Below are positions 234-36,656 of a stretch of DNA of 64,000 nucleotides, in pieces. Source of the DNA: Aminobacterium mobile DSM 12262 (GTDB lineage Bacteria > Synergistota > Synergistia > Synergistales > Aminobacteriaceae); the NCBI RefSeq assembly GCF_000526395.1, contig NZ_JAFZ01000001.1:930001-994000 (forward strand), given 5' to 3'. Position 1 is the first letter of the stretch, and each line of letters opens with the position of its first letter. The notes beneath the pieces are model-generated. The model saw only the letters and a program-made list of their open reading frames with translations. It ran no database searches and was not told where the DNA came from. Made by a program: the position numbers and the translations under genes.

Positions 234-2798
234 TTGAATACCCTGAAAAAAAGATCGATACTTCTTGTTGATGGGCATGCATTGGCATTTAGAGCGTTCT
301 ATGCCTTGCCAGAATTGAATGCCCCAGATGGTACACCTACAAACGCTATTTTAGGTTTTGTCAATATGCTCTTTAAAACAATTGACGAATGTAAACCGGA
401 TATGACGGCTGTTGTATTCGATGCCCCTGGCAAAACTTTCCGTCACATAGCATACCCTGAATATAAAATGGGTCGGAAACCAACGCCGGAAGAATATAAA
501 GTTCAAGTTCCACTCCTTCAGGAACTCATGGAATCTATGGGGATTCGGATTGTAGTCAAGGATGGGGTGGAGGCCGACGACGTTATAGCTTCCGCGGCAT
601 GTAGTGCTGCTCGTCTGGGGGTTGACGTTATAGCCTTGACCTCAGATAAAGACATTCTTCAGGTTCTTCAGCCCGGCGTAAGAATTATCAGGCCCATACG
701 GGGCGTTTCCGAGTTTAAAGATTACGACGAAAAAAATTTTGAAGCAGAATGGGGATTTCCTCCCTCCGCCATGCCAGACTACCTGGCCATGTTGGGAGAC
801 TCTGTAGACAATATTCCGGGGGTTCCTGGAGTTGGAGAGAAAACGGCGAAAAAGTTGCTCTCCCAATATGTGTCCCTTGAAGATATTTACGATCACTTGA
901 AAGATCTGAAGCCAGGACTACAAAAAAAGTTTGAAAACACGAAAGAGCAGGCCTTTAAGAGTCGGGAGCTTATTCGCTTAAAGTGCGATGTTCCTGTCAC
1001 TGCCGAGGAGTTTAGGCAGACAGACGTACAGTTCGAGAAATTCGAAGAGCTATGTCAACATCTCGGACTTTCAAAAATATACCAAAGGGTTAAGGAAGAA
1101 CAGTCTCCCTCCCTTGAGCTTCAGCAAGAAGAGCTTATTATTGGCGATGCCGTTGAGGGAAATTTGGACGAAGTCCTCGCAGGCGATACGTTGGCTCTTT
1201 TTGGTCAGGTTGAAGGAAGCTATCCTGTAGGTCTTTCAAAAGCCAGACTCGTTGTTCGCTCTCAGGACGGAGCCTTTTGGCATGGAGTAGTACAAAGTAC
1301 CGATGTTCCTCAGCCTCTAAAAAAATGGCTTCGTCATGGTCATGTTATTACATCGGATTATAAAATGTTGCAGGCCTTCCTGAAAGAAGATGCCCCAGCT
1401 CCGGAAAGAGTATGGGATGTTCAGGTAGCTCATTATCTGCTGCACCCCGACGCGAAGGCTCATAGTCCCTTGGAATGGTCGGGATCGGAAATATTCGATC
1501 CGATAGAAGGGGCTGGGTTGCTTTGGAAAACTAAAAATGAACTTGGAGAGCAGCTCGCTCGTTACGAAGGTCTTGTTGATGTAATGGATAAGATAGACCT
1601 TCCCTTGGTCCCTGTGTTGTGGAAGATGGAGAGTTGGGGGGTAGGCCTGGATACAAACTCCTTTGAAGCTCTGGAGAGAGACCTACAGGAACGGATTGGA
1701 GAGATAGAGGAGCGAATAGCTGACAAAGGGAATGAACGTATCAACCTTAATTCTCCAAAACAGGTTGCCTGGCTTCTCTTTGAAAAATTGCAGCTTCCTC
1801 CTATAAAAGAGACAAAAACAGGCTATTCTACAGACGTTACTGTGCTGGAAGAGCTCGTTAAAATGGATCTGCCTGAAAGCGAAGTACCGAAACTATTGCT
1901 GGAGCATCGCGAGTTATCTAAAATTCAGTCAGGTTTTGTCCATCCCTTGATGAGCGCTGTAAACCCAGAAACAGGGTTCATCCATGGAACTTTTGAATCC
2001 ACGTCTACTGGAACAGGTCGCCTAAGCAGCAGAGATCCTAACTTGCAGAATCTCCCCGCCTACGGCCATTGGTCGAATCGTTTGAAGGAGGGTCTTGTCC
2101 CGCACGCGAATGGCAATATATATGTAGGTGCCGACTATTCCCAAGTGGAGCTCAGGGTTCTTGCCCATCTTTGCGACGAAAAAAGGCTGAAAACGGCTTT
2201 TGAAGCTCAGCGCGATATACATACAGAAACAGCTTCATGGGTATTTAACATAGAGTCTGCGTTAGTGACCCCAGAACTTCGTCGTTTCGCAAAAGTGATT
2301 AATTTTGGAATTCTCTACGGCATGAGTTCCTACGGTTTGGCGAGTCGATTAGGTATAGGCCAACAAGAGGCAGGGGATATTATTAACCGATACTTTAAAG
2401 CCTTCCCGAAAGTAAGAGAATATGTGGAGGAAAGTTATAGAACGGCGAGAAAACGCGGGTATACTGTGACGGAGTTTGGCCGCATTCGCCCCCTTGATGA
2501 GGTATCGGTAAATCCTCGAGATCGGGGAGCCCTTAAAAGAATAGCGGTGAACACTCCTATTCAGGGGACAGCTGCTGACATAGCTCGGATAGCCATGGTG
2601 AATTTTAATCGTCATTTTAAAGATCAAGAGAAGGTCCATCTCGTTTTACAAATACACGACTCTCTTGTGTGTGAGTGTCCTGCTGAAGAGCGGGAATCTA
2701 TAGAGAAAGAATTGGCTGAGGTCATGGAATCTGCTGTAAAGCTTTCTGTTCCCTTGAAAGTAGAAACAAAATGGGGGAAATCCTTAGCAGAAGTCTAG
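234..2798 (+). CDS. polA: DNA polymerase I
   Basis: 854 residues from a TTG start placed 5 nt behind GAAGGAG. Residues 1 to about 290 form the 5' nuclease domain (GDSVDNIPG around 189). Residues about 300-470 are an exonuclease-like domain, and the rest is the family A polymerase with motif A DYSQVELR near 633, motif B RRFAKVINFGILYG near 683-696 and motif C HDS near 808. The DxE pair needed for 3'-5' proofreading is not visible (the region reads DTLALFG), so proofreading is probably lost, as in Taq and Bacillus enzymes. Role: Okazaki fragment processing and repair synthesis. It stands alone, with no tight operon partner. Confidence 0.97.
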   Translation: MNTLKKRSILLVDGHALAFRAFYALPELNAPDGTPTNAILGFVNMLFKTIDECKPDMTAVVFDAPGKTFRHIAYPEYKMGRKPTPEEYKVQVPLLQELMESMGIRIVVKDGVEADDVIASAACSAARLGVDVIALTSDKDILQVLQPGVRIIRPIRGVSEFKDYDEKNFEAEWGFPPSAMPDYLAMLGDSVDNIPGVPGVGEKTAKKLLSQYVSLEDIYDHLKDLKPGLQKKFENTKEQAFKSRELIRLKCDVPVTAEEFRQTDVQFEKFEELCQHLGLSKIYQRVKEEQSPSLELQQEELIIGDAVEGNLDEVLAGDTLALFGQVEGSYPVGLSKARLVVRSQDGAFWHGVVQSTDVPQPLKKWLRHGHVITSDYKMLQAFLKEDAPAPERVWDVQVAHYLLHPDAKAHSPLEWSGSEIFDPIEGAGLLWKTKNELGEQLARYEGLVDVMDKIDLPLVPVLWKMESWGVGLDTNSFEALERDLQERIGEIEERIADKGNERINLNSPKQVAWLLFEKLQLPPIKETKTGYSTDVTVLEELVKMDLPESEVPKLLLEHRELSKIQSGFVHPLMSAVNPETGFIHGTFESTSTGTGRLSSRDPNLQNLPAYGHWSNRLKEGLVPHANGNIYVGADYSQVELRVLAHLCDEKRLKTAFEAQRDIHTETASWVFNIESALVTPELRRFAKVINFGILYGMSSYGLASRLGIGQQEAGDIINRYFKAFPKVREYVEESYRTARKRGYTVTEFGRIRPLDEVSVNPRDRGALKRIAVNTPIQGTAADIARIAMVNFNRHFKDQEKVHLVLQIHDSLVCECPAEERESIEKELAEVMESAVKLSVPLKVETKWGKSLAEV

Positions 2799-2895
2799 GT
2801 TTTTACGTAGCCTTTAAGTAGTAAACTATGATAAAATACGCCGTTGGCATTAGATGTTATTAGCTACGGTTTATGTCAAGGGAGGCAGATTTGCT

Positions 2896-3996
2896 TTGAT
2901 AATGCGCTCGTTAAGAGAAAATGTTCGCTGGATTATGTTGGTTATTGTTGTTGTTTTCGTTCTATCTATTTTTGGTATGTATGGCTTTGGCGGTCGTCGT
3001 TCCGCTCCACAGCAGGAGGGTATGAGAGATTATCCAGTAGCTCAAATAGATGGGAAAAAGATAATGCGCTCATCTCTTGAGAACAACGTTCGTGATTACG
3101 TTGATCGGAATAATCTGAAGGATGTTACGTCGGAAGATTTGGCAGCTCTTCGGCAGGGTGTTCTCGACAATATGGTTATTCAAAATGAGCTTGCGAAAGC
3201 AGTTCAGAAGTCTGGAATAAAAGCTTCTGATGAGGAGATAGATGAGGTTGTAAAGCAGATTAGCTCTCAGTTCCCCACGAAAGAGGCTTTCCAGAAATAT
3301 CTCAACGATAGTGGAATTAAGATGGAAAACCTGAGGGCCAATATTGGAACACAGCTCGCTCAGCAAAAGTTGATAGAACAGTCAGCTGGTTCCGTGGTTG
3401 TTACATCAGATGATGTGCGAGAATTTTATGATAAGGGGAAGAATGTCTTCTTCCGTCAGCCAGCAGGCCGAAAAGTGGTTTTTGCGCGATTTATCAATCA
3501 GGATGTTGCAGCAGCCATGAGTATGGCAGTGAAGAAAGATAACTCCCAATGGGATGCCCTTCTAAAAAATGCCGCTTCTGGCGATGTGAAAGAAAGCATT
3601 TCTTACGACAAGCCTATTTTTATCGCTGAATCTGGCTTGCAAGATAAGTTTGCGTCTTTGAAAGAGCTTCCTATTGGTGGCGTTTCATCTCCTATAGAAA
3701 TAGCGAGTAACGACTATATGGTTATTCTGAATCGCGAAAATGTGGAAGAAAAGATTTTGTCTTTCGACGAAGTGAGCGGCGATATTAAGACGTTGCTTAC
3801 AAATCAGAAAAACCAGGAAGCACAGCGCCAATATATTAGTGGTTTGAAGGAAGAAGCGAAGATTGAGATTCTTGATACAACCATCTTCCCACAGCCAGTA
3901 GAGGCTGTTAAGCCAGCGGAAGCTACCTCTCAACCTGTTGCTTCTGGTGATCAAGAGCCAGTTTCCAGTGAGCCAGCGAGCGGAGATAAGAAATAA
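2896..3996 (+). CDS. SurA/PpiD-like membrane-anchored periplasmic chaperone
   Basis: 366 residues. I chose TTG 2896 because GGAGG at 2881-2885 lies 10 nt upstream; ATG 2902, two codons later, is the alternative. One transmembrane segment (about residues 12-32) follows a short basic N-terminus, so the bulk is periplasmic. The helical part to about residue 180 resembles the SurA N-terminal chaperone domain; the segment after it looks like a worn peptidyl-prolyl isomerase domain in the PpiD manner. The C-terminal tail (about 40 residues) is rich in Pro, Glu, Ala and Ser and probably unstructured. Likely role: holding outer-membrane or secreted proteins as they leave the translocon. Isomerase activity is doubtful. 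Confidence 0.8.
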   Translation: MIMRSLRENVRWIMLVIVVVFVLSIFGMYGFGGRRSAPQQEGMRDYPVAQIDGKKIMRSSLENNVRDYVDRNNLKDVTSEDLAALRQGVLDNMVIQNELAKAVQKSGIKASDEEIDEVVKQISSQFPTKEAFQKYLNDSGIKMENLRANIGTQLAQQKLIEQSAGSVVVTSDDVREFYDKGKNVFFRQPAGRKVVFARFINQDVAAAMSMAVKKDNSQWDALLKNAASGDVKESISYDKPIFIAESGLQDKFASLKELPIGGVSSPIEIASNDYMVILNRENVEEKILSFDEVSGDIKTLLTNQKNQEAQRQYISGLKEEAKIEILDTTIFPQPVEAVKPAEATSQPVASGDQEPVSSEPASGDKK

Positions 3997-4005
3997 GTAA
4001 AGAGC

Positions 4006-4034
4006 TTGACAGAACCGGGTTCCCTTAATAGAAT
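4006..4034 (+). promoter_or_regulatory. Sigma-70 type promoter of tRNA-Ser(GCU)
   Basis: TTGACA at 4006-4011 and TAGAAT at 4029-4034 are separated by exactly 17 nt, and the -10 box ends about 20 nt before the tRNA. This is a near-consensus housekeeping promoter. Confidence 0.85.
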
Positions 4035-4054
4035 AGACCCCGCAGTCTATTGGA

Positions 4055-4144
4055 GGAGAGATGGCCGAGTGGTCGAAGGCGCTCGCCTGCTAAGTGAGTG
4101 AGGCTTTACCGCCTCCGAGGGTTCAAATCCCTCTCTCTCCGCCA
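4055..4144 (+). tRNA. tRNA-Ser (anticodon GCU)
   Basis: Seven-base acceptor arm GGAGAGA pairs with TCTCTCC. The anticodon stem CTCGC/GTGAG carries loop CTGCTAA, so the anticodon is GCU (serine AGC/AGU). A long variable arm GAGGC/GCCTC marks the class II fold of tRNA-Ser. The T arm is GAGGG-TTCAAAT-CCCTC. CCA is encoded at 4142-4144. Confidence 0.97.
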
Positions 4145-4163
4145 TTTAATAAAAGTAATATAA

Positions 4164-4194
4164 AGCTCAGGCCTGAGTGGTCTGGGCTTTTTTT
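4164..4194 (+). terminator. Rho-independent terminator after tRNA-Ser(GCU)
   Basis: A 10-bp stem AGCTCAGGCC/GGTCTGGGCT with loop TGAGT is followed by a run of seven T. It overlaps the stop codon of the converging small gene at 4193. Confidence 0.9.
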
Positions 4195-4423
4195 ATGGTT
4201 TCTCATCAACTATGATTCGGTATTCGCATGAAGTTTTATTTATAAGGGTTTCCAGAAGTTCGGAGAGATTAGCTCCATGTATGTCAGTCTTTTCTTTTCT
4301 TCCTTCCTTAGTGTTGCTTTGATAAAGTACGAAAGATCCGCCTTCTTGAAGAGCGTAATACCAGGTAATCGTGTTCCCCGCGCTGTCTATTTTTCTGTAA
4401 ATGACAGGCCCTTTTTTGTTCAT
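4193..4423 (-). CDS. Small protein of unknown function
   Basis: 76 residues. ATG at 4423 is chosen because GGGAGGTGAA sits about 7 nt upstream; a longer reading from 4456 has no such site. The protein is charged and soluble, with no membrane segment and no motif I recognise. It converges on the tRNA-Ser terminator. The strong ribosome site supports expression, but the function is unknown. Confidence 0.6.
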   Translation of the reverse strand: MNKKGPVIYRKIDSAGNTITWYYALQEGGSFVLYQSNTKEGRKEKTDIHGANLSELLETLINKTSCEYRIIVDEKP

Positions 4424-13079: not shown

Positions 13080-13778
13080 GTGAAGCGAAAAAAATGCCAT
13101 CCTTATTTAGTGCCTATTATTGCTATTGTAGAAACTTTAAGTGAAACATTAGGTCCTGACTATGAGGTTGTTCTTCATGATGTTTCCGGCGAAGAGCATC
13201 AAATTGTGGCGATGGCTCATGGGGAACTAACGGGACGGACAGAAGACTCTCCTTTAACAGATTTCGGTGAGTACCTGCTTCGTAGTGAAGAGGAATATAA
13301 AGGCGTTCATTATATAGCTAATTACCCTTCTTATGCCTCTGACGGGCGGCCTTTACGATCAAGCGTAACTCTCTTAAGAGATGGGAACGAAAAGATTATT
13401 GGTTTTTTATGTATTAACTACGATATGACCCGAGCTCAAATTTTAAAGGATTTAGGAACAGAATTGACCTGTGTCGTCCCTTTAAAAGCATCTCAGGTTG
13501 CCGAAGAAACTTTTGTCCCTTCTTCGGGCTCTCTCTTGCAAAAAATCCTCGAGGAAATGCGCCAACAACGGGGCGGACGCCCTTTACGTTACACTACTAA
13601 AAGGGAAAAACTTGAGATTATGTCATTTTTGAAGTCTAAAGGGTTCTTTAGGTTGAAGGGAGCTGTAGAGGCTCTGTGTAAAGAGCTGGGGAAAAGTCGT
13701 TATACTGTTTACGGCTATTTAAGAGAGATACGAACTGGCGATAATGACAATAATAATGAAGATTCTTCTCAAGATTAA
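13080..13778 (+). CDS. YheO-like PAS/helix-turn-helix transcriptional regulator
   Basis: 232 residues. GTG 13080 is preferred because GGGAG (13066-13070) leaves no gap to ATG 13071 but 9 nt to the GTG. Residues about 10-125 form the YheO-type PAS-like sensor domain (LGPDYEVVLHDVS at the start, GFLCINYDMT at the end). Residues about 165-215 hold a helix-turn-helix (AVEALCKELGKSRYTVYGYLREIR). Such regulators often control amino-acid catabolic genes, which would suit the dehydrogenase upstream. A G+C-rich hairpin (about 13035-13059) just ahead of the ribosome site may affect translation. Confidence 0.85.
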   Translation: MKRKKCHPYLVPIIAIVETLSETLGPDYEVVLHDVSGEEHQIVAMAHGELTGRTEDSPLTDFGEYLLRSEEEYKGVHYIANYPSYASDGRPLRSSVTLLRDGNEKIIGFLCINYDMTRAQILKDLGTELTCVVPLKASQVAEETFVPSSGSLLQKILEEMRQQRGGRPLRYTTKREKLEIMSFLKSKGFFRLKGAVEALCKELGKSRYTVYGYLREIRTGDNDNNNEDSSQD

Positions 13779-13808
13779 GGTGTTACATTAAAGGAGACTA
13801 CTTTGTGC

Positions 13809-13860
13809 GAAGTGCACCCCAAAAGTTAGACATAAAGTCAAACATTTGGAGGTGCACTTC
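13809..13860. repeat. Inverted repeat resembling insertion-sequence ends, also a possible terminator
   Basis: GAAGTGCACC at 13809-13818 is the exact reverse complement of GGTGCACTTC at 13851-13860, and CCAAA/TTTGG extends the match with a one-base shift. The left side reads GTGCACCCCAAAAGTTAGAC, which resembles IS3-family (IS150-like) ends from memory. No transposase lies between, so this is either a scar or a miniature element. A run of T follows at 13863, so the fold could end transcription of the YheO-like gene. Confidence 0.5.
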
Positions 13861-13874
13861 AGTTTTTCCTTCTT

Positions 13875-16070
13875 TTATTTTTTTATGCTCTGATCCGCTA
13901 TGGTTAAGGATCGGGAAAGATTGTTTTTATCTATCTTAAACTGTGCAATCATCTCTCCCAGGCGATGGGCTCCTTCCGAGAGACTCTGTGATTCTACAGC
14001 AACTTGTTCACCTGCTTTGGCAGTGTCTTCAGATGCCTGACGTATCGTATCCACTGAGGCTACAACTTGAACGGTCGACTGGGTTACTTGGTCGATTCCA
14101 GCTGCCATCTCTTCCGATGATGCTGCTTGCTCTTCTGCTGTGGCGGCTATATTTTGCATAACATCGTTTACGTGCGATATTTCCTCCATGGCTTTTTGCA
14201 GCTGTTTTTTAGCTTTCTCTGATCGATTAATAGTTTGTTCTACGATTTCATCGACCTGGCCTATAGACGTCAAAGCGTTTTTAGTCTGGGTTTGTAGATT
14301 GTTAATAAGTGTCTCCACTTCACCAGCAGCAACGCCAGATTCTTCAGCAAGTTTTCGTACTTCTTCTGCTACTACAGCAAAGCCTCGACCGGCATCTCCT
14401 GCCCGTGCTGCTTCTATAGCGGCGTTTAAAGCCAGAAGATTGGTTTGGTCTGCTATAGTCTGGATGGTTGTTACAAAACGAGTAATAGTTTCAACTGCAT
14501 TTGCAACAGCTTTCATGCTCTGGGCTGTTTCCTTCGAGCGCTTCCCTACATTTGTGATTTCTTCAACAACTGTAGAAACTTCCAAAGTAGCGGCATTGCT
14601 GATTTGCGTGGTTCGAGCAGTTGCTTCGGCACCTTCTGTAGCAGACTTGGCTGCGTTTGTCGCGCTGGAACTTACTTCTTCTACTCCGGCATTCGTCTCT
14701 TCTACTGCTGCGCTTGTTGTTTCTGCCAAGGTAGCTACTTGATCTACAGAGGCTTTTATTTCTTCCATGGAAGCTACCGATTCTTCAGAAAGAGCTGCGA
14801 GAGATTCAGCGCTGGAGCTGAAACGCTGAGATTCTTCCTGAAGCCCATTTATTATTCCCGAGAGATGTTCTTGTAGATTCAACATGGCATGAAGCATTTG
14901 TGCAATCTCGTCTTTTGATTTCATATATTGCTTCATCCATGACAGAGATTGGTTAGAAGAAAAATCAAGATGGGAAAATTGTTGCAACATTTGAGATACG
15001 CCATTAATTGGGCGAACAAGAGTGCGGGTGATAAGGATAATGATGAGGCTCAAAATGATAAGCCCAACAAGAGAGGCCGCAATAGTATTGCGAGCCATGA
15101 TGATGGCGTCTTCTTTTATCTTTGACATGGGAACCTGGATATTGAGGCTCCAGGGGGTTTCCGTATTGCCTAATTGTACAGGAGAATAAATTTTATAGGC
15201 TTCCCCGCTGAGGGCATTAGAGAAATCAATAATATTATAAATCTCACCTTTTTGAATATGCGTTAAAATGGTTCCAACATCTTTTAAATCATCAGTACGT
15301 TCTGTTAAGTTCTTACCAATAAGCGCTTCATTATCATGATAGATGGTAGTTCCATTATTGGAATAGAGAGAGGCCGTACTTCCTTCCACAACGCTGATGT
15401 TTTTCACTATCTCTTGCACTGTAGCTAAATCAATATCTATACCGACGACCCCGGCTATTCCCCCATTTAAAAAAATAGGGGTGCATATACTTGTAATAAA
15501 CTCAAAATCATCTTTTTGCCCAGAATAATTATAAAGATAGGGGTTCATAACAACAGTTTTTCCAGTTTTTTTAGGAAGGATATAGAAATCTCCTTCCCCA
15601 TTTTTGCTTAACAAAGATTCTGTTATGTCAAAAGAACGTTGAATATGTCCGTTTTTCTTGACAAAATCTACAATAAAACGGCCAGTTTCCTGATACCCGT
15701 CGCGTTCCACATACATAGAATCTTTCCCATCAAATGCGTTTGGTTCAAAGGCGACCCATGCGGTAAAAGCGAGGGGCGTTTCTTTTAAAACATTTTCAAG
15801 CATCCCTAACACATTTTGTCGGGCCTGGCTATCTTGCCGGTCTATGCCAGATATGCTTTTGGCGAGAGTTTCTGCGGTAATAAGTCCCTTGTCAATTTCT
15901 GAGGCGATAGCGTAGGCTGACGAACGAGCTGTTTCCGTTACAAGAACCTTTGTTGCCTTCAATGTTTTTCCATGCACGGAAAAAGCAATAAAACCAATTA
16001 AAAATGCGAGTATGATCGTGACTGTGGAGAGAAAATAGAGGAGCATCTTGCCCTGAAGTTTGAGTTTCAA
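13875..16070 (-). CDS. Methyl-accepting chemotaxis protein with Cache sensor domain
   Basis: 731 residues from TTG 16070, 6 nt after AAGGAGGT. Order: transmembrane helix 1 (about 9-31), a double-Cache extracellular sensor (about 35-320), helix 2 (about 330-352), HAMP linker (to about 410) and a cytoplasmic signalling rod. The conserved tip [15 protein letters not shown], followed by [15 protein letters not shown], is clear. dCache receptors often bind amino acids or other small carboxylates, plausible here but not shown. No CheA/CheW gene is in the window. The 366 bp upstream hold nothing coding. Confidence 0.95.
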
Positions 16071-32483: not shown

Positions 32484-32571
32484 GGAGAAGTGGCCGAGTG
32501 GTCGAAGGCGGGCGCTTGGAGAGCGTCTGAACCGAGAGGTTCCGTGAGTTCGAATCTCACCTTCTCCGCCA
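32484..32571 (+). tRNA. tRNA-Ser (anticodon GGA), integration target
   Basis: Acceptor GGAGAAG pairs with CTTCTCC. Anticodon stem GGCGC/GCGTC with loop TTGGAGA gives GGA. Long variable arm; CCA encoded at 32569-32571. Its last 23 bases are duplicated at 36530, marking the insertion site of the element that follows. Confidence 0.96.
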
Positions 32572-32572
32572 T
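32549..32572 (+). repeat. attL: left copy of the 24-bp core repeat
   Basis: The 24-bp sequence from the T loop of tRNA-Ser(GGA) through CCA and one T (starting TTCGAATCTCACC, ending CTCCGCCAT) is repeated exactly at 36530-36553 in the same orientation. Confidence 0.92.
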
Positions 32573-32582
32573 TTGATATCTC

Positions 32583-32616
32583 GTCCCTCGCTATTACAGC
32601 GTAGGGACATTTTTTT
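32583..32616 (+). terminator. Terminator supplied by the element for tRNA-Ser(GGA)
   Basis: Stem GTCCCTCGCT/AGCGTAGGGAC (one bulged base) with loop ATTAC is followed by seven T. It lies just inside the element, replacing the displaced chromosomal terminator at 36563. Confidence 0.88.
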
Positions 32617-32691
32617 ACCCTCATATGTCTTACTGAAGGCAAACTAGTACAAAGTGCTAGTACAAGGAGGCCGGAAGTCTTCACTTTATCT

Positions 32692-34097
32692 GTGGGTAAA
32701 TCTCCTTCATATCTGGTTTTACAAGGTCAAATATACTATTCCCGTATGTCCATTCCCCTTGGTCTAAGAAAGACATTCGGTAAAACTGAAATACGCTATT
32801 CTTTAAGAACAGGCTATCTGCGTGAGGCTAGAGCAAGGTCAAGGGTATTGGCTGTGCGGGTGCATAAACTTATGAATTTAGTACACAAAGGGGCAGAGCC
32901 AATGTCCGAACTTACTGCAGAACAGATTAAAGAACTAGCTGATACTTGGATGAAAGAAGGACTTGAAGAGGACGAACTAGACAGGGCGTTAGCTCCTAGG
33001 CCAATGACAGTGGAAGAATAGGAAGTAGAGGACGAAGCCCTCTTTATTCTTCCATCAAATTTTAAGGAATATTTAGTCTTGAATGATTATACAAGGGTTA
33101 GATATCTTGTGGATAATTTGTTGGAAGATAGGGGGATAAAGCTCGACCGTGATTCTGTTTCCTATAAGGTTTTATGCAGGGAATTGCTCAAGGCGCTACC
33201 TAAATGGTTTAAGGTTCTTGAAGATAGAAAGTACGGTATTTATGATACAGACCCTGTTTTACAAGTACATAAGTACATAAGTACATAAGTACATAAGTAC
33301 ATAAGTACAAATACATAATAGTATCCCCTCACCCACAGCATTCAAAGCCTTCTCCCTGTCAGACGCAATAGATAAATATGTTGATGAAAAGGTGAGAGCA
33401 GGGGAATGGTCTAAGTCTTCTCTCAAAGATATGACCCCTGACCTGAAACTCTTTCTTGAGTTAGTAGGCGATATTGACACCTCTTTCATAACCAAGGATC
33501 ACGTAAGGCAATTCAGAGAGATAGTCATGAAACTACCAAAGCATTACAAGAGTAAAAAGTGTTATAAAAACTTATCCTTGGTTGAAATAACCTTTCTAGA
33601 TATTCCCAAAGATAAATTGCAATCTACAAACACTGTCAATAACAGGTTGGTAAAGCTTGGTTGTTTTCTTATATGGTTGGGCTCTATGGATTACAACAAT
33701 GTATCTGGTTTAAGTGAACCACTGAAAAAACTGAGGTCCAAGGATAAGAAATCTGACAAAGTGCCCTTTGCTAAAGATGATCTGCAAAAACTTTTTACGG
33801 GTAGGGAGAATAGAAGAGCTTTGTCAACTCCATGTTGATGATGTAAGGGTTGTGGATAGTGTATGGGGTATCGATATTAATAATCAGGGGGAAAAACTTG
33901 TAAAGACCCTAGCAGGAATAAGGCTAGCCTCTCTTCATCCCGTTCTTGTGGAGCTGCGTAGGTTTCCATCCTTTGTGGCAAAGGTCAAAGCTGAGGGGAA
34001 CAAGCGAGTGTTTCCTGAGTTAAAGACTGTGAAAAAAACAGGAAGGTGTTCAGATCGTGCATCCTCGTGGTTTAATCGCAGGCAGAGTCTCCTATAG
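32692..34097 (+). pseudogene. Tyrosine recombinase (integrase), multiply disrupted
   Basis: The N-terminal part (YLVLQGQIYYSRMSIPLGLRK...) resembles the arm-binding start of DUF6538-type phage integrases; the middle is the core-binding domain and RIEELCQLHVDDV is the first catalytic-Arg box. Lesions: TAG at 33019-33021 in frame; an 8-bp repeat expansion at 33263-33308 that shifts frame 1 to frame 2; a frame change near 33790 where about 30 residues before RIEEL seem deleted; and an end before the HxxR and Tyr motifs. It lies directly downstream of attL, as expected for the element's own integrase. Confidence 0.85.
33263..33308 (+). repeat. 8-bp tandem repeat (AAGTACAT), 5.75 copies
   Basis: Five full units and a six-base partial unit follow without interruption. 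Removing exactly five units (40 bp) would join the two halves of the integrase frame. Because 8 is not a multiple of 3, any copy-number change shifts the frame. Confidence 0.95.
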
Positions 34098-34325
34098 GAA
34101 AGTTTTTAGCCTTCCCAGTCTTGGCTTCTCTAAGTACGATCCTATCCTTAATCCTTCCCTTTGAATCTCTTACGTTCTCTACCTTGAGGGACAGAAGGTC
34201 TGACACCCTCAGTCCTGAGTTAATGCCAAGGGTGAACAGGGCTTAGTCTCTTAGGTTTTTTGCTTTGAGTAACCTCTTCATCTTGTCTATTTTTTCCTGT
34301 TTTTTATTGGTTGAACAAATTCCAT
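34072..34325 (-). pseudogene. Second tyrosine recombinase fragment, opposite strand
   Basis: Begins at ATG 34325 behind AAGGGGG. After 12 codons an A6 run shifts the frame. The continuing frame reads KNLRD, then a TAA (34243-34245) in place of the usual Tyr, then ALFTLGINSGLRVSDLLSLKV, the Arg-box region of XerC/D-like recombinases, to about KTGKAKNFPI. It is cut off where it meets the other integrase relic. It was never complete in this element's present form and adds a second, unrelated integrase history. Confidence 0.75.
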
Positions 34326-34653
34326 GCTAATCCCCCTTATGAAAGTAACAAAGAATGCATTGAAAATATATTAAGTTACATTTAAAGTCAACGCTAAAAA
34401 ATACATCTTAAGTTGAATTGCTCTTAAGCCTTGTTAATGCTTAATTGGGGGGGCTTTTTCGAATGTAACAAAATAACATTGTGTTTTATTCGCTAAATAC
34501 TGCCTCTCAAAATGTTTGCTGTATGTTCTGTTGTGTTATGATTAAATAGCTTGTCCATTATTAGCTTAAACTAACCAACTCATTGAGCAAGCGAATTACT
34601 CTCTACACGGTCTAATGATTTATCAAGGATTTTAGATGAAAGGGGAGCTTTCA
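34326..34653. other. AT-rich upstream region of the Mrr-domain gene
   Basis: About 330 bp, AT-rich, without an open frame or RNA gene that I can support. TTGCTG (34515) and TTATGATTAAAT downstream could form a promoter, but spacing is ambiguous. No inverted repeat suggesting a dedicated operator is visible. Confidence 0.45.
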
Positions 34654-36399
34654 ATGAGTCAATTTGTTAAACTGCCAAGGAAATATGATCAAGTTGTGAA
34701 TGTGGATGATCAATTTTCTGTAACGCGTCTTTTTGATTCTCGCTGTGACTATTGCTATAAGCTTTCTCACGATGGTCTAAATAAAATCAAATTAATCAAA
34801 AGTAACGATCCTTATGATCTTGAGATAAAACTTGGTAATCTAACGAATCAATGGATGGATCAATGGGAAAAATTGCAAGAACGTGAAGAGAAGCGAAAAA
34901 ACAGGGAAAATGAAAAGCAACTGAAGGAAGAGAAACAACGGATTGCAGTTGAAAAAAGTGAAGAAGCGAGTAAAAGGCTTAATGAGATACAAGCTCTTCT
35001 AGTTAGTGGGGTTGAAAATACCACTGTCGTTGATTGGGAAAAAGCCAAGAAAACTGAAAACTATCACCTTCCTAAACCTGCTCCTCCTAAGAAACCATCA
35101 TTTCCAATAGAACCTAAAAGGACTGACTTAAAATACAATCCTAAAATTGGTTTCTTTGGTTCTATCTTTGGAGGGAAAAAAGCCAAGGAAGAAGAAGCAT
35201 CGCAAAACTTTATAAAGGACGTTAATGAATGGAAAGGCAAGGTCAATGAGCTTAGAACTAAGCATGAAGAAAAGACAGCAACCTATCAAATACAAATACA
35301 ACAATGGGAAAAAGGTAGAGATGAATTTGTGCAAGAGGTAAGAGCTTTTAATTTGTATCTTGATGGAATGCAAGAAAAGTATAGGGTTGTTACTAAAGAT
35401 GGAGTTGAGTTTCAAGCAAAGCTAGTTCTAGAAGATTCATCTTATCCAGAGAGTTTTCCGAAAAACTTCGATATTGAATATACTCCTGATAATAAGGTTC
35501 TTGTCATTGATTATCAACTCCCCAGTCCAGAAGATCTTCCTCGGCTCAAAGAAGTAAAATACATAGCTTCCAGAGATGAATATCAGGAGAAGTTTATTAC
35601 AGACTCGGCAAGCAAAAAGCTTTACGATGATGCCATATATCAAGTATGTCTTCGGACTATCTATGAATTATTCAAGAATGATCAGATTGATGCATTGTGT
35701 GCCGTTGCATTTAATGGGATTGTTGAATCTATCGATCCTGCTACAGGACAGGATATCAGAGCATGTATCTTAAGTGTACTTGTGGAAAAAGAAGAGTTTT
35801 CAGATATTAACCTAACCAAGATAAATCCTAAACAGTGTTTCAAGAAGCTAAAAGGGGTGGGCAGTTCTGCTCTTCATAGTTTAACTCCTATTGCTCCTGT
35901 TATTGAGCTTAATCGTAAAGATAGTCGTTTTATTGATGCTTATGGAGTAGTTGAAGGAGTTAGTCCCGATACAAACCTTGCTCTGATGAATTGGCAAGAT
36001 TTTGAGCATTTAATCAGAGAGGTCTTTGAAAAGGAGTTTTCTGGAAATGGTGGAGAGGTAAAAGTTACCCAAGGGAGTAGAGATGGGGGAGTAGATGCAA
36101 TAGCTTTTGACCCAGATCCTATCAGGGGCGGTAAAATCATCATTCAAGCTAAAAGATATACTAATACAGTAGGTGTATCTGCGGTGAGGGATCTTTATGG
36201 AACTGTAATGAATGAAGGGGCCACAAAGGGTATACTAATCTCAACTTCTGATTATGGTCCAGATGCCTATGAGTTTGCCCAGGGAAAGCCTATAACGCTA
36301 CTAAATGGTTCAAACCTCCTCCACTTACTTGAAAAACATGGACATCAGGCTAGGATTAATCTGAAGGAAGCAAAACAGATATTAAGTATGGAGCAATAA
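34654..36399 (+). CDS. Coiled-coil protein with C-terminal Mrr-type restriction endonuclease domain
   Basis: 581 residues. ATG 34654 follows GGGGAG by 6 nt; ATG 34636 overlaps that region. Order: a short N-terminal domain (1-60); a highly charged coiled coil (about 65-115); a Pro/Lys linker (about 135-160); a glycine-phenylalanine kink and second helical stretch (165-240); a mixed domain with helices (about 320-440); and an Mrr catalytic domain (about 450-570). The PD-(D/E)xK core is visible as D481 (GGVDAI) and Q498-A-K500 (IIQAKRY). It is the only intact gene of the element. It probably acts as a solitary modification-dependent (type IV) or abortive-infection nuclease. Confidence 0.85.
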   Translation: MSQFVKLPRKYDQVVNVDDQFSVTRLFDSRCDYCYKLSHDGLNKIKLIKSNDPYDLEIKLGNLTNQWMDQWEKLQEREEKRKNRENEKQLKEEKQRIAVEKSEEASKRLNEIQALLVSGVENTTVVDWEKAKKTENYHLPKPAPPKKPSFPIEPKRTDLKYNPKIGFFGSIFGGKKAKEEEASQNFIKDVNEWKGKVNELRTKHEEKTATYQIQIQQWEKGRDEFVQEVRAFNLYLDGMQEKYRVVTKDGVEFQAKLVLEDSSYPESFPKNFDIEYTPDNKVLVIDYQLPSPEDLPRLKEVKYIASRDEYQEKFITDSASKKLYDDAIYQVCLRTIYELFKNDQIDALCAVAFNGIVESIDPATGQDIRACILSVLVEKEEFSDINLTKINPKQCFKKLKGVGSSALHSLTPIAPVIELNRKDSRFIDAYGVVEGVSPDTNLALMNWQDFEHLIREVFEKEFSGNGGEVKVTQGSRDGGVDAIAFDPDPIRGGKIIIQAKRYTNTVGVSAVRDLYGTVMNEGATKGILISTSDYGPDAYEFAQGKPITLLNGSNLLHLLEKHGHQARINLKEAKQILSMEQ

Positions 36400-36529
36400 A
36401 TGGGGGGAAATATTTTCTCCAATGTCCTTGAGTTGTCTTAGTGGACTTCAACTGATACAATTCGCTACGACAAACAAAAAAGTAAGACATAGATAGCATC
36501 AGGGCTTGGGAGTTTTTGGCAAGCGAATT

Positions 36530-36553
36530 TTCGAATCTCACCTTCTCCGCCAT
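36530..36553 (+). repeat. attR: right copy of the 24-bp core repeat
   Basis: Identical to 32549-32572 over 24 bp, direct orientation. The sequence on the left differs from the tRNA, so only the 3' tRNA end is duplicated. Confidence 0.92.
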
Positions 36554-36562
36554 GAATATACA

Positions 36563-36590
36563 AGGTTGCCTCATAAGGGCAACCTTTTTT
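36563..36590 (+). terminator. Original terminator of tRNA-Ser(GGA), displaced
   Basis: Stem AGGTTGCC/GGCAACCT with loop TCATAAG and a T run lies 10 nt after attR, at the distance seen behind the other tRNAs here. It was probably next to the tRNA before insertion. Confidence 0.85.
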
Positions 36591-36656
36591 GTTCTTGCCA
36601 AGCAGCAACAATCTTTTCTTTAAGATAATGCATTCTCAAGTCAATATATTCCAACG

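Follow-up and report, generated by a model that had tools for sequence, protein, structure and literature searches.

A decayed islet with an Mrr-type nuclease gene in a tRNA-Ser gene of Aminobacterium mobile and its two-recombinase relatives

In some genomes of the Escherichia coli pan-genome, "integrase-only" defence islands combine an integrase or recombinase with defence genes and carry no other mobility genes, often at tRNAs (PMC10121019). How these islands move was left unclear, and the movement of single defence genes without obvious mobility genes was raised there as an open question (PMC10121019). Here we describe a 4.0-kb islet in the tRNA-Ser(GGA) gene of Aminobacterium mobile DSM 12262. 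It lies in a window of 64,000 nucleotides, the whole stretch of DNA that was analysed (contig NZ_JAFZ01000001.1, positions 930,001 to 994,000). The islet contains one sizeable intact gene, for an Mrr-type nuclease, and the remnants of two tyrosine recombinases, here called int1 and int2. It is probably a decayed integrative element from a family of small, phage- or satellite-like int1+int2 elements with an exchangeable slot for defence-type cargo.

The integrase-only island of E. coli is the nearest published concept. Like it, the islet is small, sits at a tRNA site and has recombinase and predicted defence genes with no other mobility genes; its recombinases are pseudogenes. It differs in coming from another phylum and in belonging to a family that pairs a large DUF6538 integrase with a short, convergent phage-type recombinase. 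In the window islet, in addition, the boundary between backbone and cargo is resolved and both recombinases are dead.

Three further kinds of element share some of these features. Cis-mobilizable elements (CIMEs) keep the left and right attachment sites, attL and attR, and have lost their integration genes. They are decay products of an integrative and conjugative element (ICE) or an integrative and mobilizable element (IME) (PMC5704250). The islet shows the same retention and loss and could, in principle, be moved by an integrase in trans or by accretion. CIMEs, however, are defined by ICE or IME descent. Genes for a relaxase or for conjugation were not noticed in the open reading frames (ORFs) of four intact relatives presented below (L164, L165, L166 and L215), most of which had no profile search and for which no dedicated search was made. 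GInt or Tn6571-type islands have three integrases and a small protein (PMC10121019). They too join several recombinase genes to defence cargo, but the islet family has two dissimilar, convergent recombinases and tRNA-specific att sites. Phage satellites of the P4-like and phage-inducible chromosomal island (PICI) types have defence hotspots (PMC9122126) and are likewise small and partly tRNA-targeted, with phage-like regulators in some members and variable defence cargo. Unlike them, the int1+int2 family has no known helper. Its six scanned loci contain no homolog of a phage terminase query, and no capsid, primase or satellite hallmark was found among the proteins run against Pfam and PHROGs.

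A literature search on mobile elements in this phylum found little, and one for DUF6538 found nothing. The integrase family, the element's ends and attachment sites, the unoccupied alleles and an alternative cargo within one backbone can all be named at this locus, which makes the idea of a shuttle for single defence genes testable. The same parts give a rule for genome mining: a tRNA, a DUF6538 integrase, a convergent recombinase of ~190 aa and a slot point to candidate defence genes.

An insertion in the tRNA-Ser(GGA) gene

The sequence TTCGAATCTCACCTTCTCCGCCAT, which is the 3' end of the tRNA-Ser(GGA) gene plus one base, occurs in two exact copies, one at each edge of the islet (Table 1). 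These are the only two copies in the whole genome. No third copy was found in the window, even with three mismatches allowed, and none of 100 shuffles contained a copy at three mismatches or fewer. In our comparison set of 183 genomes of the order (Synergistales), the two congeners, Aminobacterium colombiense (G001; PMC3035294) and Aminobacterium sp. MB27-C1 (G002; PMC11008193), are both complete single chromosomes. Directly after the tRNA of A. colombiense come CATGAATATTAAAAGCTGCC, the terminator and a GGDEF gene in convergent orientation, which shares 48% identity with the GGDEF gene to the right of the islet. In MB27-C1, the tRNA is followed by CATGAATATTTAAGCTGCCC and the terminator. Neither tRNA gene contains an element. 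Both CATGAATATTAAAAGCTGCC and CATGAATATTTAAGCTGCCC match CATGAATATACAAGGTTGCC, which follows the right-hand copy of the repeat in the window (36551 onward). The sequence outside the two repeats is thus native, and the 3.98 kb between them are an insert. The region is an insertion, and the two congeners carry the unoccupied alleles.

Table 1. Features of the islet and its target gene in window coordinates (G043, another genome of the comparison set)
Feature	Position	Strand	Basis
tRNA-Ser(GGA), target gene, intact after insertion	32484-32571	+	ARAGORN; Rfam RF00005, 54 bits
attL core, 24 bp, equal to tRNA 3' end	32549-32572	+	exact repeat; unoccupied alleles in G001, G002
Element-borne terminator-like hairpin and T run, now 3' of tRNA	32587-32621	+	fold -15.9 kcal/mol, z -6.2
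Repeated ACTAGTACAA / GCTAGTACAA motif, left arm, possible arm-type integrase sites	32643-32666	+	92% match to G043 element right arm
int1 remnant, DUF6538 + Phage_integrase tyrosine recombinase, pseudogene	32683-34082	+	PF20172 4e-16; homology to G043 int1
Tandem repeat, 7 copies of 8 bp, AAGTACAT, within int1 remnant	33263-33318	+	Tandem Repeats Finder (TRF)
int2 remnant, N-terminal ~75 aa of ~190-aa phage-type tyrosine recombinase	34081-34326	-	6.5e-26; PF00589; 65% aa identity to G043 homolog
Last backbone match upstream of int2, left edge of cargo slot	34460-34483		87.5%, E=0.022
Intact cargo gene, Mrr-type nuclease, 587 aa (581 aa from 34654)	34636-36399	+	PF04471 1e-32; PADLOC mREase_IV 5e-65
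Right arm, homologous to G043 element right arm	36446-36509		alignment and shuffles
attR core, 24 bp	36530-36553	+	exact repeat
Original tRNA terminator, pushed away by insert	36562-36593	+	fold; same spacing from core in G001, G002

Partial duplications of tRNA genes occur, and the repeat could in theory be a chance duplication of the tRNA 3' end beside unrelated genes, with no mobile element involved. Against this stand the unoccupied sites in both congeners and the presence of homologous arms in an element of G043. The unoccupied alleles refute a chance duplication, and we reject it as having practically no probability.

The insert brought a terminator-like hairpin of its own. A similar hairpin follows the tRNA at the equal position in the related elements L164, L166 and L215, and a weaker one in L216 (L165 was left out of the folding). 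Judged from its predicted fold, the element-borne hairpin takes the place of the native terminator that the insertion displaced.

A preliminary description of the locus had reported that both edges carry an exact 24-bp repeat taken from the tRNA 3' end, and had proposed a search of related genomes for a tRNA-Ser locus free of the insertion. The repeat was found as described, and both congeners supply the empty locus. The description had also proposed a search for the same core beside other cargo genes. The exact core is duplicated in no other of the 183 genomes, and a search of the 183 genomes for same-locus duplicates of a 23-bp core, with one mismatch allowed, gave no other case.

Two recombinase remnants and their relatives

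The int1 remnant is 53-73% identical in amino acid sequence to the intact 567-aa int1 of G043. It is damaged by an in-frame TAG at 33019, by frame breaks around the 8-bp tandem repeat and by an internal deletion between two LFTG motifs. It stops short of the C-terminal catalytic region, where the later of the invariant residues (His, Arg and Tyr) lie, and the islet holds no functional integrase gene. The second remnant, int2, is convergent with int1 and has lost its C-terminus at the deletion junction (~34083-34091). Because both genes are cut at the same junction, one deletion of ~2.65 kb (1564 to 4216 in the coordinates of the G043 element) explains their fusion. No other copy of int1 was found in the A. 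mobile genome at the thresholds used; the remaining PF00589 genes encode proteins of 296-314 aa (three genes) and 411 aa (one gene). The islet is a decayed member of the tRNA-integrated tyrosine-recombinase elements and is probably immobile today. Both cores and both arms are retained, so an incoming int1 could in principle move it, which is speculation. The preliminary description had recognised the broken integrase at the left repeat and had missed the second recombinase on the minus strand. Its view that the islet no longer moves by itself agrees with two broken recombinases and no further int1 in the genome.

When the 183 genomes were searched with the two proteins, int1 homologs were found in 10 and int2 homologs in 76. 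Intact copies of both occur together at five loci in four genomes. Two are in G043, at tRNA-Ser(GGA) (L164, 6.7 kb) and tRNA-Ser(TGA) (L165, 7.0 kb). The others are at tRNA-Ala(GGC) of G128 (L166, 6.5 kb), tRNA-Ser(TGA) of G137 (L215, 8.3 kb) and tRNA-Thr(TGT) of G138 (L216, 15.6 kb). A sixth locus, L168 of G070, is broken off by a contig end. At the five intact loci, int1 and int2 are always convergent and int1 always adjoins the tRNA, whose 3' end is repeated over 17-20 bp at the far side. The window islet has the same make-up, with convergent remnants of a DUF6538-type int1 and a ~190-aa int2 between att sites, collinear with the G043 element.

Alternatively, an ordinary prophage or ICE might have lost its body by deletion and left behind the integrase pieces and one unrelated gene. 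Members of the int2 family in prophages with a recognisable terminase stand directly before the terminase gene (L230, L231, L232 and L283), and phage-like regulators (a ParB-like protein, Rha/KilA-N proteins or a BRO antirepressor) are encoded in L166, L168 and L215, as well as in L216. Yet four of the five intact relatives measure just 6.5-8.3 kb, and the terminase query had a homolog in none of the six int1+int2 loci scanned. In phage contig L283, moreover, int1 is found at the edge of the contig, next to a different integrase of 425 aa that is the phage's own. We consider descent from an ordinary prophage or ICE unlikely.

The int1+int2 elements may, though this is less likely than not, be a family of undescribed small phage satellites of Synergistales. 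On such an account they would use int1 to enter tRNA genes, and int2, being homologous to the terminase-adjacent recombinase of the helper phages, would serve to exploit those phages. Through an exchangeable anti-phage slot of one or two genes, single defence genes would then shuttle between genomes.

Several observations concern these relatives. The best phage records for int2 come mostly from Gram-positive temperate phages, and the purpose of a second recombinase of this kind before prophage terminase genes is not obvious. In L283 (IMG/VR contig 2513237299_000003, 569-5600), the int1-type integrase is 63% identical to that of L166, and a small element may here stand in tandem with a prophage. 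In L215, a 1.2-kb segment (13098-14315) with a Gp49/HigB-like toxin gene and a helix-turn-helix (HTH) antitoxin gene lies between the second and third copies of the tRNA-Ser core. It has the form of an integrase-less, toxin-antitoxin-like islet in tandem with the int1+int2 element.

The cargo slot and the nuclease

The division into backbone and cargo comes from a comparison with L164. The left arm and int1 are collinear at 72-76% nucleotide identity, and the int2 segment follows. Homology ends at 34483, is absent for ~1.9 kb and resumes in the right arm. The right-arm match scored 52 against a shuffle maximum of 45 (0 of 300 shuffles reached it), and the match upstream of int2 scored 71 against 68, narrowly above 300 of 300. 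A 600-bp stretch of cargo, outscored by 34 of 100 shuffles, has no significant similarity to L164. Where the window has the Mrr-type gene, the slot of L164 contains a 208-aa gene with no assigned function and an AbiJ-type gene (AbiJ_NTD4, 1e-23; PADLOC PDC-S32, 1e-84). The same ends and recombinases, with a different defence-type gene in G043, suggest a small shuttle with an exchangeable cargo slot. The arms also hold repeated GTACAA-type motifs, and AGTAAGACAT in the right arm is inverted relative to TATGTCTTACT in the left arm. These repeated motifs and the inverted TATGTCTTACT / AGTAAGACAT pair are possibly integrase arm sites.

An 11-bp direct repeat, GCAAGCGAATT, brackets the nuclease gene and the right arm. 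One copy (34587-34597) lies 56 bp before the likelier nuclease start and the other (36519-36529) abuts the right core. It may have arisen by chance or be a scar left when cargo was inserted. The repeat also fits a different order of events, in which the Mrr gene was an integrase-less islet of its own that entered the tRNA first, the int1+int2 element arrived later in tandem, and the core between them decayed. Integrase-less tRNA islets of Mrr homologs exist elsewhere (L127, with a 49-bp repeat, and L090, with a 41-bp repeat), and the toxin-antitoxin-like islet after the L215 element, with its third core copy, offers a tandem precedent. The 11-mer is, however, near chance (about 0.2 expected by our own estimate), and the window lacks a third core. 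The right arm just inside attR, in turn, is homologous to the int1-type right arm of G043, which places the nuclease inside one int1-type element. Such accretion is accordingly improbable.

Translation of the nuclease more likely starts from the ATG at position 34654; GAAAGGGGAG lies 6 nt before it. The Mrr catalytic domain (Mrr_cat) spans residues 451-565, and D487, Q504 and K506 are invariant in 32 sequences. Homologs are 39-50% identical. No Pfam match was found outside 451-565 at the curated cut-off, and the model shows a coiled coil where the N-terminal DNA-binding domain of Mrr would lie. The protein is therefore one with an Mrr catalytic domain and not an orthologue of E. coli Mrr. An AlphaFold model (mean predicted local distance difference test (pLDDT) score 84; predicted template modelling (pTM) score 0.57) has a small N-terminal beta domain, two long coiled-coil helices, a central alpha/beta domain and the C-terminal nuclease. 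Its top fold matches in the PDB are AspBHI and MspJI, both modification-dependent endonucleases. Whole-chain TM-scores are low, so the match concerns mainly the nuclease part. The protein thus shares an Mrr_cat domain with intact catalytic motif, and these folds, with the Mrr/MspJI-type (type IV) nucleases. It differs in that a long coiled coil and a central domain of no assigned class replace a known recognition domain. A sequence search among solved structures found none. The phage search gave one weak partial match, and plasmid relatives, annotated as restriction endonucleases, are at most 51% identical. From its domains, the predicted nuclease likely cleaves incoming DNA, is probably modification-dependent and would serve in defence.

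The history that we favour, that of a decayed int1+int2 element, would run as follows. Through site-specific recombination by its own DUF6538-type int1, an element of perhaps 6-7 kb, now 4.0 kb, would have inserted at the tRNA-Ser(GGA) 3' end. It would have carried in a copy of the tRNA 3' end as its attP core, together with its own terminator for the tRNA. Its gene order would have been that of the family: the attL arm, int1 reading inward, int2 reading back toward int1, and the attR arm, with the variable slot of the nearest relatives between int2 and the right arm. The slot here would have held one Mrr-type nuclease that would cut foreign DNA. Later, the ~2.65-kb deletion would have fused int1, cut in its middle, with the end of int2, and int1 would have been inactivated by additional stop codons and frame breaks. 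With int1 dead, the islet would be fixed, and the nuclease gene is still open. An open nuclease gene beside ruined recombinases suggests that the nuclease is the part that was kept, presumably by selective retention. Past mobility by int1, and the role of int2, we infer.

Several points weigh against this history. The cargo swap is resolved at the nucleotide level in one comparison only, that of the window with L164. The cargo of L165 (genes of 260 and 228 aa without recognisable domains and a bactofilin-like gene) has no assigned function, and L166, L215 and L216 carry their phage-like regulators between int1 and int2, not a defence gene beyond int2. The GCAAGCGAATT repeat leaves room for a second, tandem insertion. 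The nuclease has no close relative against which purifying selection could be measured. Mobility of the element, finally, is predicted from sequence. The preliminary description had proposed a 4.0-kb islet that now carries a single intact gene, a defence-type nuclease, and in this it was right. Its further suggestion, that such islets shuttle single anti-phage genes, gains support from the G043 element, with its shared backbone, same tRNA isoacceptor and other defence-type cargo; with one resolved swap, it is unproven.

Related genes and clusters at this and other loci

The analysis covered 80 nuclease homologs from other genomes. In Actibacterium mucosum (L127, 5756-8396), a 2.6-kb islet with an Mrr homolog and no integrase lies at tRNA-Pro and has the 49-bp repeat. 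The corresponding tRNA-Pro region of a relative, Marivivens donghaensis (L276), also includes the flanking NrdJ gene but lacks the insert. Repeats of 41 bp and 43 bp occur at the Mrr homolog loci L090 and L107, and the order tRNA, recombinase, nuclease is found at L071 and L132. In a post hoc count, five Mrr homologs have a tRNA within 600 nt, where the remaining loci would predict 1.1. Most homologs are away from tRNAs, so the association is a tendency. With a home-made profile, a tyrosine recombinase was detected near 3 of the 80; the profile is narrow, and absence near the other homologs is therefore weak evidence.

In MB27-C1, the same chromosomal gap contains 8.4 kb of other DNA (L053, 2944-11242), beyond the intact tRNA terminator and without a tRNA repeat. 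This is a different defence-type cluster, with an autotransporter-like ORF, a KAP/PifA-like NTPase, a SIR2-like protein, HerA and a CarD-like gene; the autotransporter-like and CarD-like labels rest on reading the translations. In another genus (G004; L234, 3375-5633; compare L210 of G032), an ORF for a distant, 752-aa recombinase-like protein lies directly 3' of a tRNA-Ser(GGA) gene and overlaps it. The tRNA-Ser(GGA) gene thus looks like a repeated target of integration.

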